A stretch of DNA of 7,498 bases from CAVPRW01 sp046727435 [NCBI: bacterium] (lineage in GTDB: Bacteria; Tectomicrobia; Entotheonellia; J063), in assembly GCA_046727435.1 (NCBI GenBank), contig JBKPCR010000362.1:1-7498 (forward strand). Reading direction: 5' to 3'. Below the pieces are notes generated by a model. The model worked only from the letters and a program-made list of their open reading frames with translations, was not told where the DNA came from and ran no database searches. Below are positions 525 to 5,075 of the stretch, piece by piece (the stretch's first letter is position 1; each line of letters opens with the position of its first letter). The position numbers and the translations under genes were made by a program.

Positions 525-590
525 ATGATCCAGATCATCGGCATGCACCATATTGGCATTTCCGTAGTAGATGATCTAGAGCGCTGCTAG
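525..590 (+). pseudogene. Truncated VOC/glyoxalase-fold protein (N-terminus only)
   Basis: The ATG at 525 follows GGAGG (516-520) at a spacing of 4. It opens the peptide MIQIIGMHHIGISVVDDLER, then Cys and TAG (588-590). The stretch GMHHIGISVVDDLER matches the first beta strand and loop of the vicinal-oxygen-chelate family (glyoxalase I, bleomycin-resistance and extradiol dioxygenase relatives), where the first His of HxGISV is a metal ligand and DLERS..FY follows. After the TAG the same frame continues AEVLGMK, which resembles the family's FYxxVLGMK. The gene may therefore have lost a few codons and gained a stop before being joined to the peptidase gene. About 110 residues of the usual domain are missing, so no activity is expected. 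Confidence 0.5.
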
Positions 591-605: not shown

Positions 606-1187
606 ATGAAAACCGTAGGCCTGCTCTTAACTTTCCTCTTAGTTGTAGAGGCTGCAGTCATACAAGGTCAGGTTCCCCGCCGTGCAGTATCGGATGAGCA
701 GATTATCGCCCAGGGGCAGCGAGTTGGAAGCGGTACATACGTAGAGATTTATCAGCATGGCGTGACTGTTGATCCGTCCTTTCTGAGGATAATGGAAAGC
801 GAATACAAACAGGTAGAGACCGTGACGGGTGTGAAGCTGGATACAGCTACACTGAGTCCCAAAGTGCACGTCTACGTCTCGGATGCCGTAGGAGTGTCCC
901 ATGTTTGGAGGGGATACCAACATCCAAGCGATCCGAGAGCGATTATTTTTCTGAACCCAAGGGTATATTTGGGAGCCATGAGCGGTACAAACGCCACGCA
1001 TATTCATGAGCTGACGCACCTGTTTACTTGGCGTTTCACCAGTCATACTCTACGGCAAGGTCTTGCTGACTCTGTCGCGCCCATCCTCCTTCCCGGAGCC
1101 GCAGCCGCGGGCCTAGCGCTTCATAGTCCCCTACCCGGCTACACACGACCAAGGGCAGCAGGCCATAGTCCTGTCGAAAGGTATTGA
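606..1187 (+). CDS. Secreted HExxH metallopeptidase, truncated and fused to antisense DNA
   Basis: The ATG at 606 has GGAGGT (593-598) seven bases upstream. Residues 1-22 (MKTVGLLLTFLLVVEAAVIQ...) look like a signal peptide, so the product would be exported. Residues 134-138 are HELTH, the zinc-binding HExxH helix of gluzincin-type peptidases, followed by LFTWRF and QGLAD (151-155). In peptidase-MA-like families that last motif is normally EGLAD, where Glu is the third zinc ligand. Here it is Gln (CAA), one base from GAA, so metal binding may be impaired. Homology-like sequence stops at residue 155 (base 1070). Residues 156-193 are merely the antisense of the NACHT gene. Composition up to 1070 is about 45-60% GC, against about 78% in a sample of the NACHT region. 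The substrate is unknown. The gene is probably non-functional because the C-terminal half of the domain is absent. Confidence 0.6.
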   Translation: MKTVGLLLTFLLVVEAAVIQGQVPRRAVSDEQIIAQGQRVGSGTYVEIYQHGVTVDPSFLRIMESEYKQVETVTGVKLDTATLSPKVHVYVSDAVGVSHVWRGYQHPSDPRAIIFLNPRVYLGAMSGTNATHIHELTHLFTWRFTSHTLRQGLADSVAPILLPGAAAAGLALHSPLPGYTRPRAAGHSPVERY

Positions 1188-2316
1188 TCGCGTCGACACA
1201 GCCTGCGCGATGCTCGGCCTGCACTTCATCGAGCCCATCCAGTAACGGCAGTACCTGGTCCGCATCGACCCATGCCTGGCCCATTTTGCTGGGTACGTCG
1301 TACCGCTGTTGGAGTTCGTCGACCAGCCAGTCACCCAAGGGGCGCCGCTGCGCGGTCCAAGATGACAGGGGGAAGACCACGGGGATCGGCTGCTCCGGGT
1401 CCTGGGCCGCGCGCTGCAGCAGGGCACGGGCGAGCGTCAGCAGTAGTGTCGTCTTGCTCGCCCCCGGCGCGCCAAGAATCAGCAGCGCGCGATCCATACG
1501 ATCGAACACTCCAACAAGTAGTGTCCCTGGCGCCTGTACCCGGTCGACGAGGTCCGGGCGCTGGACAAGGAGGTCGAAGGCACGGGTCACCAAGGCGGGG
1601 TGTCCGGTCAGCCCTCGCTCCCGCAGGATGTCCTGCGGGAGCGAGGGCTGGAGCACGCCGATGATCCAGATGGCCCAGACCTTCTCGATCATCGCCCGCC
1701 GATTACGACTGGCCGGGTCGGAGCGGCGCGTCTCCCCGAAATATTGCTGAATGGTCACCCCGCGCAGGGTGAAATTGTCGCCGACGGTGATGTGGTCAAA
1801 CTGGAGTTGGGCAGCCGGCGTAAGACCGGCTGCCTCCATCTGCTCTCGCTCGTGTTGTCGCTCTTTCCAGCGCGAGAAAGCCGGGAGAACATCGACCGAT
1901 GTCGGGTCGGCTGTGAACCGCTCGATGCCGTGGTGGAGGCCGATATACTCGCGCCATTCCTTCAGCAGGGGGTCTTTCGTGCGATCATCGTAAGGCTCCG
2001 GCCATCCGGTTACCCCATCATCCAGCAGGAACGGGAGGACGTCGATCCCACGGTCGATGGCGTGATCGTACTCCATTTGGGTAATACTGCGCGCTTGCCC
2101 TGCGGGGACGAACCCATGGCGAAACCTGACCAGGAGCACACAGGCCTGACAGCCGTCGAGCCGGTCCAGGCTAAACCGCCTCGGCTCGTCCGCGTCCGAG
2201 GTCCAATCCTCCATGGGATCGACCTGATATCCCGCCTTGCGCAGTTGGGCGATGACCCGTTGCCGGTGTTCCTTCAGATCGACGTAGGGGGAGGAGACGA
2301 ACACCTCGACTGGCAT
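1036..2316 (-). CDS. DUF4062-NACHT STAND ATPase, C-terminally truncated
   Basis: The ATG at 2316 is preceded by AGGAGG (2322-2327 on the opposite strand, spacing 5). Residues 1-100 (VEVFVSSPYVDLKEHR..., then ITQMEYDHAI and VLPFLLDD) match DUF4062, a TIR-like N-terminal domain often fused to NACHT ATPases. Residues about 277-394 form the NTPase core: Walker A GAPGASKTT (282-290), Walker B VLPLLDGLDE (355-364) and sensor-1-like LLPLVVCSR (386-394). STAND proteins of this layout are signal-activated switches, and some relatives act in phage defence. The role here is inferred only from family. The winged-helix and sensor repeats that should follow are missing. After about residue 407 the frame reads the antisense of the peptidase gene. 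Full-length relatives are usually much longer than 426 residues. The N-terminal part looks intact and well expressed. A perfect palindrome sits at residues about 223-236. Confidence 0.8.
   Translation of the reverse strand: MPVEVFVSSPYVDLKEHRQRVIAQLRKAGYQVDPMEDWTSDADEPRRFSLDRLDGCQACVLLVRFRHGFVPAGQARSITQMEYDHAIDRGIDVLPFLLDDGVTGWPEPYDDRTKDPLLKEWREYIGLHHGIERFTADPTSVDVLPAFSRWKERQHEREQMEAAGLTPAAQLQFDHITVGDNFTLRGVTIQQYFGETRRSDPASRNRRAMIEKVWAIWIIGVLQPSLPQDILRERGLTGHPALVTRAFDLLVQRPDLVDRVQAPGTLLVGVFDRMDRALLILGAPGASKTTLLLTLARALLQRAAQDPEQPIPVVFPLSSWTAQRRPLGDWLVDELQQRYDVPSKMGQAWVDADQVLPLLDGLDEVQAEHRAGCVDAINTFRQDYGLLPLVVCSRVGDYEALGPRLRLREGGWARQSQQDLAVEYDW
1071..1096. other. Illegitimate junction between two convergent gene fragments
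   Basis: Plus-strand peptidase-like sequence ends at 1070 (after QGLAD). Minus-strand NACHT-like sequence ends near 1096 (after LGPRLRL). The switch between the two, and a sharp rise in GC, falls in these 26 bases. Both genes lose their 3' ends at the same point, as expected from a deletion, an inversion breakpoint or a chimeric assembly. No insertion-sequence end or target duplication is visible. Confidence 0.65.
1609..1650. repeat. Perfect 20+2+20 bp palindrome inside the NACHT gene
   Basis: Bases 1609-1628 and 1631-1650 are exact reverse complements separated only by TG. The DNA could extrude a cruciform and the mRNA would form a 20-bp hairpin. It encodes residues about 223-236 (QPSLPQDILRERGL) in the linker just before the NACHT core. 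There is no T-run, so it is not an ordinary terminator. The arms are GC-rich. Confidence 0.95.
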
Positions 2317-2412: not shown

Positions 2413-2441
2413 AGTGTAGGCGGGAAGGACGGCCGTGTCAA
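2413..2441 (-). promoter_or_regulatory. Strong sigma70-type promoter for the NACHT ATPase gene
   Basis: Read on the minus strand, TTGACA (2436-2441, a perfect -35) is followed after exactly 17 bases by TACACT (2413-2418), a four-of-six match to the -10 consensus. Transcription would start near 2406, leaving a leader of about 90 bases before the ATG at 2316. It lies between the NACHT gene and the end of the broken membrane gene, so the NACHT gene is probably transcribed independently. Confidence 0.7.
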
Positions 2442-3138: not shown

Positions 3139-3330
3139 CGCCCCATACAGGTAGGCGCCGCCCAGGTCGGCCCCGCCCAGGGTGGCCCCGTGCAAGTCGG
3201 CCCTGGCCAGGGTGGCCTCGCCCAAGTTGACCCTGTACACGTCCAGCCTCACATCTGGGTTTTTCTCCCGCCATTGGCGGATGGCCTCTGCCCCTTGCTG
3301 CACGAGGTCGACGTGTTTAGGGGTGGCCAT
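3070..3330 (-). CDS. Pentapeptide-repeat protein N-terminal half, frameshifted
   Basis: The ATG at 3330 has GAGGAGG (3337-3343, opposite strand) at a spacing of 6. The product begins MATPKHVDLVQQGAEAIRQW, then REKNPDVRLDVYR, a leader typical of bacterial pentapeptide proteins in which a helix precedes the repeats. Six repeats follow at residues 34-63: VNLGE, ATLAR, ADLHG, ATLGG, ADLGG, AYLYG. These form a right-handed beta helix in known members, usually a protein-binding or membrane-apposed scaffold. After residue 64 (base 3139) the frame turns into unpatterned sequence and stops at 3070. The frame that continues with membrane segments is offset, so a full-length protein would need a frameshift. 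Six repeats is short for the family, and repeats may have been lost with the frame. Confidence 0.65.
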   Translation of the reverse strand: MATPKHVDLVQQGAEAIRQWREKNPDVRLDVYRVNLGEATLARADLHGATLGGADLGGAYLYGARGTHQAHGLESVRFTQPIQPSR

Positions 3331-4014: not shown

Positions 4015-4641
4015 ATGGTCGCGAAGGCGTCCGCCGTGTCCACTCACCGTACTGTGCAGAGTTTAGACCCCGTCGATGCATCGCCCCGCGATTATCTGAC
4101 CGAACGCGAGATAGAGCTGTTCTGCAAAGCGGCGAAGCACGGCCGCCATGGCGCCCGCGATTACGCCATGGTGCTGCTCGCCTATCGCCATAGCCTGCGC
4201 GTCTCCGAGCTCGTCGAGATGCGCCTGGATCAGCTCGATTGGCACACCGCCCATCTGTGGGTCGCGCTCAGGAAGGGCAGCTTGAGCACGCAGCACCCCC
4301 TCGATGGCGATGAGTTGCGGGCGCTGCGTGCCTGGTTCCGCGCACGTGAGCGCCATCCCCAGCGCCATCTCCCCTGGATATTCCTGAGCGAGCGGGGGCC
4401 GTGCACACGGCAGATGTTCAACTACCTGGTGGCGGCGATCGGCACGCGCGCCGGACTCCTCCCGCACGTGCATCCCCATATGCTGCGCCATAGCTGTGGC
4501 TATGCGTTGGCCAATAAGGGGCGCGACACGCGGCTGATGCAAGATTACCTGGGGCACCGGAATGTACAGCATACGGTCCGGTACACGCGCACGGCCGCGG
4601 CGCGCTTTGAGGGCTTGTGGCGGTCGGCGGAGGGAGACTGA
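4015..4641 (+). CDS. FimB/FimE-like tyrosine recombinase
   Basis: The product has 208 residues, close to the roughly 200 of E. coli FimB and FimE. AAGGAAG (4001-4007) precedes the ATG by seven bases. The catalytic set of tyrosine recombinases is complete: Arg62 in HSLRVSELVEMR, Lys87 in LRKGS, His155 and Arg158 in HPHMLRHSCGYALA, His181 in DYLGHRN, and the nucleophile Tyr190 in HTVRYTR. The C-terminal run from HPHMLRHS to ARFEGLW closely follows the Fim recombinases. Like them it lacks the usual N-terminal core-binding domain. Known members invert a promoter segment between short inverted repeats. No such segment or fimS-like repeat is evident nearby, so it may act elsewhere or have become an element integrase. 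Its stop codon shares one base with the next start. Confidence 0.9.
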   Translation: MVAKASAVSTHRTVQSLDPVDASPRDYLTEREIELFCKAAKHGRHGARDYAMVLLAYRHSLRVSELVEMRLDQLDWHTAHLWVALRKGSLSTQHPLDGDELRALRAWFRARERHPQRHLPWIFLSERGPCTRQMFNYLVAAIGTRAGLLPHVHPHMLRHSCGYALANKGRDTRLMQDYLGHRNVQHTVRYTRTAAARFEGLWRSAEGD

Positions 4642-5075
4642 TGAGCGACTATGACACCGATTTCTATGCCTGGACCCAGGCCCAGGCCGCGGCGATCCGC
4701 GCCAAAGCAGTGGCCGCGCTGGACATAGACCACTTAGCTGAGGAGGTCGAAGACTTGGGCCGTGCGGTCCGGAAGGCTATCGGCAGTCAGTTGGAGCGCC
4801 TGCTGCTGCACCTGCTCAAGTGGCAGTATGATCCGGCCACCGACCCGCGTCGCCTCTGGCGCGTCACTATCCGCCACGCCCGACGGGAGATTGCCGATGA
4901 TCTCGCCGAGAACCGGAGCCTGCACGGCTACCCAGCCGAGCGCCTGGCGACGGCCTATCGGCACGCCCGCGAGGACGCCGCCGACGAGACCGGCCTGCCG
5001 CTCGCCACCTTCCCTGAGGCCTGCCCGTGGCCGCTGGCCCAGGTACTGGATGAAGACTTCTGGCCGGAGGCCTGA
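4641..5075 (+). CDS. DUF29 family protein
   Basis: The product has 144 residues, the usual length of DUF29 (about 140-150). The ATG at 4641 overlaps the recombinase stop by one base (TGATG), with a ribosome site GGAGGGAG (4629-4636) inside the recombinase gene, so translation is probably coupled. Family hallmarks run the whole length: YDTDFYAWTQAQA near the N-terminus, LDIDHLAEEVEDLG, LLLHLLKWQYDP, then LWRVTIRHARREI, ETGLPLATFPEACPW and LDEDFWPEA at the end. The protein looks helical and cytosolic, with no signal or membrane segment. DUF29 is abundant in cyanobacteria and some purple bacteria, and I know of no established biochemical function. Coupling to a recombinase is notable. Confidence 0.92.
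   Translation: MSDYDTDFYAWTQAQAAAIRAKAVAALDIDHLAEEVEDLGRAVRKAIGSQLERLLLHLLKWQYDPATDPRRLWRVTIRHARREIADDLAENRSLHGYPAERLATAYRHAREDAADETGLPLATFPEACPWPLAQVLDEDFWPEA

Follow-up and report, generated by a model that had tools for sequence, protein, structure and literature searches.

How does a long perfect palindrome come to lie inside a protein-coding sequence, and does it do anything there? The question is raised by a stretch of 7,498 bases (the window), in which positions 1609–1650 form such a palindrome within a gene that joins a DUF4062 domain to a NACHT domain. The original prediction described 42 bases with 20 exact pairs and a two-base spacer, in coding sequence and just before the NACHT core, and it was exact on each point: the arms, 20 nt each, are 100% complementary; the symmetry stops at their ends, where the next pair outward (T1608/G1651) is a mismatch; and the palindrome lies in frame as residues 223–236 (QPSLPQDILRERGL), in the linker ahead of a NACHT match at residues 277–370. 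The elements are, in the order in which the gene reads them:

1036–2316, minus strand: ORF of 426 aa, comprising DUF4062 and the first part of NACHT
1631–1650: arm 2, the 5′ arm relative to the gene, encoding Q-P-S-L-P-Q and part of the following Asp
1629–1630: spacer, the two bases TG
1609–1628: arm 1, the 3′ arm relative to the gene, encoding L-R-E-R-G-L and part of the preceding Ile

Both domains of the host ORF exceed the Pfam cut-off: DUF4062 at residues 5–86 (E 1.6e-14) and NACHT (E 1e-7), the latter over profile positions 2–98 of 167 only. Residues 4–121 match KpSwz, a DUF4062 protein of solved structure (PDB 10wc, E 3.9e-7); PADLOC gave a weak mad8 match over residues 273–303 (E 3e-4) and NCBIfam gave zero matches to the ORF. 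A structure prediction with a mean pLDDT of 49, and below 50 across most of the linker, was set aside. The available text of a preprint (PMC13174449) identifies KpSwz as a TIR-like NADase of the antiphage system Swarozyc and notes that human proteins carry DUF4062 adjacent to NACHT; for KpSwz itself that text gives an auxiliary domain, with no mention of NACHT. Unlike KpSwz, the window gene joins DUF4062 to NACHT, looks truncated and has an altered P-loop. About 100 bases upstream of the ORF start there is a promoter-like site (2413–2441, minus strand: TTGACA, 17 bases, TACACT), the one such site found between 900 and 2500, where 0.3 are expected.

The palindrome is real and far from chance, as had been claimed. 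It is by far the longest perfect palindrome in the window when spacers of up to 20 are allowed, the runner-up having arms of 9 nt. With bases treated as independent and drawn at the window's composition, arms of at least 20 are expected 6e-8 times in 7,498 bases for spacers up to 2, and 4.5e-7 times for spacers up to 20. When the peptide is held fixed and synonymous codons are drawn as the gene uses them, the arms pair perfectly in 4 of 200,000 draws if the palindrome's own codons are left inside the pool and in 1 of 100,000 if they are kept outside it; on average 12.7 of the 20 positions pair. The peptides of 10 distinct relatives, written in the gene's own codons, reach at most 13 of 20 pairs in 200,000 draws.

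For comparison we collected 129,814 bases from 26 sources – the window, 24 other loci (L006 omitted) and 50 kb of E. coli K-12 – a small sample, in which seven further perfect palindromes have arms of at least 11 and spacers of up to 8. Annotated genes flank the five found in E. coli; L014 has one, ahead of that stretch's sole annotated gene; and one, with 16-base arms and a 6-base spacer, is at 2268–2305 of L007, just beyond a NACHT frame that ends at 2257 (L007 carries no annotation, and placement there was judged from plus-strand frames). Thus within this small sample the window's palindrome is the sole one inside a frame with known homology. L007 is the closest relative found, and the position of its palindrome, just beyond the NACHT frame, is an ordinary place for a terminator-like hairpin. 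A separate inverted pair in the window (528–550 and 1649–1671), with 10 identical bases in the middle, was taken as chance because, by a rough estimate, about 27 such 10-base pairs are expected per window. A literature search returned no published report of the palindrome.

The predicted fold is strong. For RNA of the coding strand over 1589–1670 the folding energy is −54.9 kcal/mol, where 200 shuffles give −31.9 ± 3.5 (z −6.5); for the DNA of 1600–1659 it is −28.8 (z −7.9). An intrinsic terminator, defined by a stem followed by a T run, was rejected: a scan of 900–2500 calls two terminator-like sites, neither of them at 1609–1650. A known RNA family was likewise rejected, since an Rfam scan of the window returned nothing at gathering score.

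The relatives found for the ORF are distant. A tblastn search of plasmids returned 42 records when the whole ORF was the query and 37 when it was the linker–NACHT part, mainly from Nostoc and Streptomyces, with the best place below 60% identity in each; the same kind of search found no relative in phages. IMG/VR contributed five loci, the best of which (L007) is 47% identical over the linker and is the nearest covering relative found; a wider alignment scan recovered the same five. A single-protein scan, which takes six short peptides as its query and may miss more distant relatives, gave 33 pattern matches in species genomes and 3 in viral contigs, with 0 confirmed in either, and neither a degenerate linker pattern search nor a plasmid nucleotide search gave anything useful. 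Nineteen plasmid loci were fetched by hit; in 7 of them a pentapeptide-repeat gene lies just upstream of the NACHT gene. The window has pentapeptide repeats too, with a 15-base periodicity, at 3139–3234 on the minus strand, upstream of the NACHT gene and on the same strand.

From 25 tblastn rows, 20 span the palindrome (19 distinct loci, L006 repeating the record of L002) and five do not. Throughout the 20 covering rows the palindrome's 14 residues align without a gap, which indicates that the segment is inherited rather than inserted and contradicts the suggestion that a REP-like sequence had been inserted and read in frame. The same perfect dyad in all homologues, it had also been said, would argue for protein constraint; in the covering rows, at most 47% identical, it occurs in 0 of 20. 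The relatives' 42-mers form 3–8 of 20 pairs, and on this count we rejected the idea that protein constraint keeps the dyad, which appears specific to the window among the sequences found. Many of the rows are near-identical Nostocales, so that the independent sample amounts to about nine linker sequences, and it is on nine that the family profile of the linker columns was scored. The profile and the set of invariant columns come from 12 representatives (including the window) of less than 75% identity, chosen from 22 sequences; L006 and L009–L011 are omitted, L008 and L024 have no linker coverage, and L001 was trimmed before an internal stop. That last relative, from Acaryochloris, is annotated over 1309–2637 as two adjacent hypothetical proteins with the stop inside the matched stretch, so that members of the DUF4062–NACHT family may be broken elsewhere too.

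How does the encoded peptide compare with its family? The pattern SL...LGL that related proteins had seemed to share is indeed there: Ser, Leu (one relative has Val), Leu and, in most, Gly stand at the same places, gap-free. The relatives give ten distinct versions of the 14-residue segment; in these, positions 3 (Ser) and 12 (Leu) are constant, nine have Ile at position 10, and position 5 is always His or Tyr, where the window has Pro. The codons that matter are:

1642–1644, minus strand: TCG, Ser 225; Ser in 20 of 20 covering rows
1621–1623, minus strand: CGG, Arg 232, where 9 of 10 distinct segments have Ile; pairs as complement with CCG (Pro 227, the His/Tyr column)
1615–1617, minus strand: CGA, Arg 234, where 20 of 20 covering rows have Leu; exactly complementary to TCG (Ser 225)
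1609–1614, minus strand: GGG CTG, a family-like G-L; complement of CAG CCC in the 5′ arm, a Q-P that is not family-like

Scored on six residues each against the family profile, the 5′ arm reaches −1.0 and the 3′ arm +6.1. In the former only Ser and Leu resemble the family, with Q, P, P, Q and D all scoring below zero; the latter keeps four conserved residues (L, E, G, L), its two Arg being outliers. These scores argue that neither arm is simply a copy of the other, and a single whole-arm copy from 5′ to 3′ was rejected on the same profile. Arg 234 is consistent with the 5′ arm as template, and Q-P and Q-D with the 3′ arm as template; the partner of Arg 232 is a Pro that is just as unusual. Copying seems to have been two-way and partial, or else the lineage had an unusual 5′ arm earlier: the below-zero scores of Q, P, P, Q and D would call for several events or for an ancestor with such an arm. 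The unusual residues alone prove nothing, since positions outside the palindrome (for example residues 92, 50 and 55 of the aligned stretch) are comparably unusual. In a leave-one-out comparison the window protein breaks two of 30 columns that are invariant elsewhere (L234R and G287S), an ordinary number given that other representatives break 0 to 4; only the places are unusual. Nor is CGA an exceptionally rare codon for Arg, at 16 of 147 Arg codons in the window's frames.

How close to a palindrome might the ancestor have been? If the two Arg codons are replaced by ATC (Ile) and by CTG or CTC (Leu), 15 of 20 positions still pair, the five altered bases falling in two patches; across all the Ile or Ser codons and Leu codons tried, the count runs from 14 to 17. 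A family-like peptide reaches at least 15 of 20 pairs in 0.18% of synonymous draws, with a mean of 10.3.

The state of the gene bears on whether such changes would have been tolerated. A functional DUF4062–NACHT (STAND-like) protein would be expected to have both domains, an intact P-loop and a complete NACHT and sensor part; both domains are present, the NACHT and sensor part is incomplete, and the P-loop is altered at one position:

1456–1458, minus strand: Walker A residue 287, Gly to Ser, in a P-loop reading GAPGASKT; the Gly before Lys is invariant in the other representatives

Homology to five relatives, some of whose loci are themselves cut, ends at 1093 (L007), 1087 (L004), 1045 (L002), 1075 (L013) and 1075 (L005), and the remainder of their proteins gives weak, scattered matches to the window (best E 0.028). 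The sequence past the break belongs to the end of an unrelated ORF on the plus strand, with GC down from 0.63 to 0.50. Because homology breaks near 1093–1045 and the P-loop Gly has become Ser, the gene looks truncated and decayed and is probably no longer functional; the break itself may be a junction in the genome that disrupted the two genes, or else a chimera of the assembly.

The surroundings of the gene are mixed. The plus-strand ORF whose end meets the NACHT homology break runs from 606 to 1187 and has a HELTH motif, read by eye; a plasmid search for relatives of its frame 606–1085 gave nothing useful. Ahead of it a frame of 21 codons at 525–587 (MIQIIGMHHIGISVVDDLERC) is presumably the start of a glyoxalase/VOC protein, and Pfam found nothing on this short frame. 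On the other side of the NACHT gene, 4015–4641 encodes a short tyrosine recombinase that NCBIfam matches best to two models of tyrosine-type DNA invertases, in both cases below the curated cut-off; a DUF29 protein (4641–5075) follows, and the plasmid relatives of the DUF29 protein and of the recombinase come from many groups. The invertase was considered as a source of the palindrome and rejected, no link between the two having been found.

We consider it probable, with real room for doubt, that the palindrome is a chance, lineage-specific product of template-switch homogenization of a quasi-palindrome, tolerated in a gene that is probably broken. The conserved residues of the linker use GC-rich codons that may already have been complementary in part (CTC for Leu and GAG for Glu; GGG CTG for Gly-Leu and CAG CCC). 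Where an inverted repeat is imperfect in this way, a replication fork may briefly have copied the nascent or the opposite strand, whereupon part of one arm would have been replaced by a precise reverse complement of its partner with length unchanged. One or more switches, probably in both directions, could have left perfect arms with Arg in place of the family's Ile and Leu; starting from 15 of 20 pairs, a switch would make both mismatch patches complementary at once. The change would then have persisted because the gene was probably no longer functional. The imperfect ancestor, the number and direction of the switches and the loss of function are all inferred. The perfect inverted repeat, the two-base spacer and the absence of net insertion relative to relatives are what template switching would leave; against it, codon choice alone would seldom produce a starting state with 15 or more of 20 pairs. 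Correction of an imperfect dyad by template switching, one of the origins first proposed, is thus the best-supported reading; it is also unproven, the nearest covering relative being 47% identical.

A model for template-switch mutation at quasi-palindromes was reportedly put forward by Ripley in 1982, and the process has since been seen in several settings. In the available text of the sources, quasi-palindromes in E. coli become perfect through template switching, as in thyA and lacZ (PMC7202029); a single event can create a perfect stem (PMC8794818); and in yeast, 39 coding genes carry the signature, with up to five neighboring replacements, in a report that describes such events in genes as seldom reported and able to resemble positive selection (PMC8604942). 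Imperfect repeats seem to mutate toward more perfect ones (Van Noort 2003), and small inverted repeats are rarer in E. coli ORFs than in randomized controls (Ladoukakis and Eyre-Walker 2008), both as cited in the available part of PMC6060812; the available text of PMC10434271 gives no rate for long perfect repeats in genes. The window's palindrome resembles these mutations in being a short coding inverted repeat that probably became perfect with its length kept, and in having clustered non-synonymous changes that may reflect copying of the partner arm. Its arms, of 20, are longer than in the 18-bp laboratory quasi-palindrome described in the available text of PMC7202029; it differs from these cases also in that its ancestor is hypothetical and in having unusual residues in both arms, which makes more than one event likely.

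The closest published look-alike, judged from the available text, is found in the mitochondrial coding sequences of Nematomorpha (PMC6649704), where perfect repeats lie in frame and both arms encode conserved residues; template switching is named there as one possible maker. The 'phase 2' repeats of that study have fewer Leu, Ile, Val, Phe and Met, residues with T at the second codon position. The window's arms fall in this class by register, their second codon positions pairing with each other, and resemble it in the loss of Ile and Leu. The Nematomorpha palindromes differ in being numerous, up to 284 bp long and in functional genes, whereas the window has just one, of 42 bases, in an apparently truncated gene. 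That text also describes the Rickettsia elements as selfish palindromic elements.

The other explanations have to be set against the same evidence. Point substitutions piling up by chance in a GC-rich gene would need no template switch, and the conserved residues of both arms do have complementary GC-rich codons, which accounts for the average of 12.7 pairs; with perfect pairing in about 1 to 2 per 100,000 synonymous draws, and with a peptide altered at family columns exactly as pairing requires, we find this account unlikely while keeping it in view. An artefact of sequencing, amplification or assembly, whether by template switching in vitro, of which polymerases are also capable, or by a wrong hairpin consensus, seems quite improbable: in a fold-back chimera all sequence past the hairpin would be inverted, whereas the homologous frame is maintained on either side. 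REP, MITE and Rickettsia-type elements are typically compact inverted repeats, and the Rickettsia elements lie inside genes; these and REP sequences are insertions present in many copies. The window's palindrome is as compact, and differs from them in not being an insertion and in having no other copy in the sequences searched: its 28-base core has zero exact matches in 84,980 species genomes or in IMG/VR, and no second match to an arm at 17 or more of 20 positions exists in 133,258 bases. The gap-free alignment, with family residues kept in both arms, speaks against a REP-like insertion, and a mobile or dispersed palindromic element of any of these types, inserted in frame, is in our judgment highly improbable.

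Could the hairpin have been selected for what it does? A stable mRNA stem would tune the amount of full-length protein if it made ribosomes or polymerase pause or were an RNase III substrate, and the strength of the fold as both RNA and DNA and its placement, with the DUF4062 effector part on one side and the NACHT part on the other, are what such a role would predict. Pausing or processing is possible on these two grounds, and transcription pausing, replication stalling and nuclease targeting, all raised by the original prediction, are possible consequences of the palindrome. As an explanation of its presence, selection for a functional hairpin is unlikely: none of the 20 covering relatives has the dyad, neither an Rfam family nor a terminator-like site was called there, and the gene looks truncated. 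Very doubtful, too, is a selected coding hairpin at which halting yields a short NADase-only product beside the longer sensor, a lineage-specific expression switch; were it true, the palindrome would separate a TIR-like NADase domain from the NACHT switch in a defense gene.

If homogenization by template switching is the correct reading, the locus would be a clean natural case, in a bacterial coding gene, of neighboring amino acid changes copied from arm to arm. The palindrome would then stand as a useful worked case of a known mutational process rather than as a new system.
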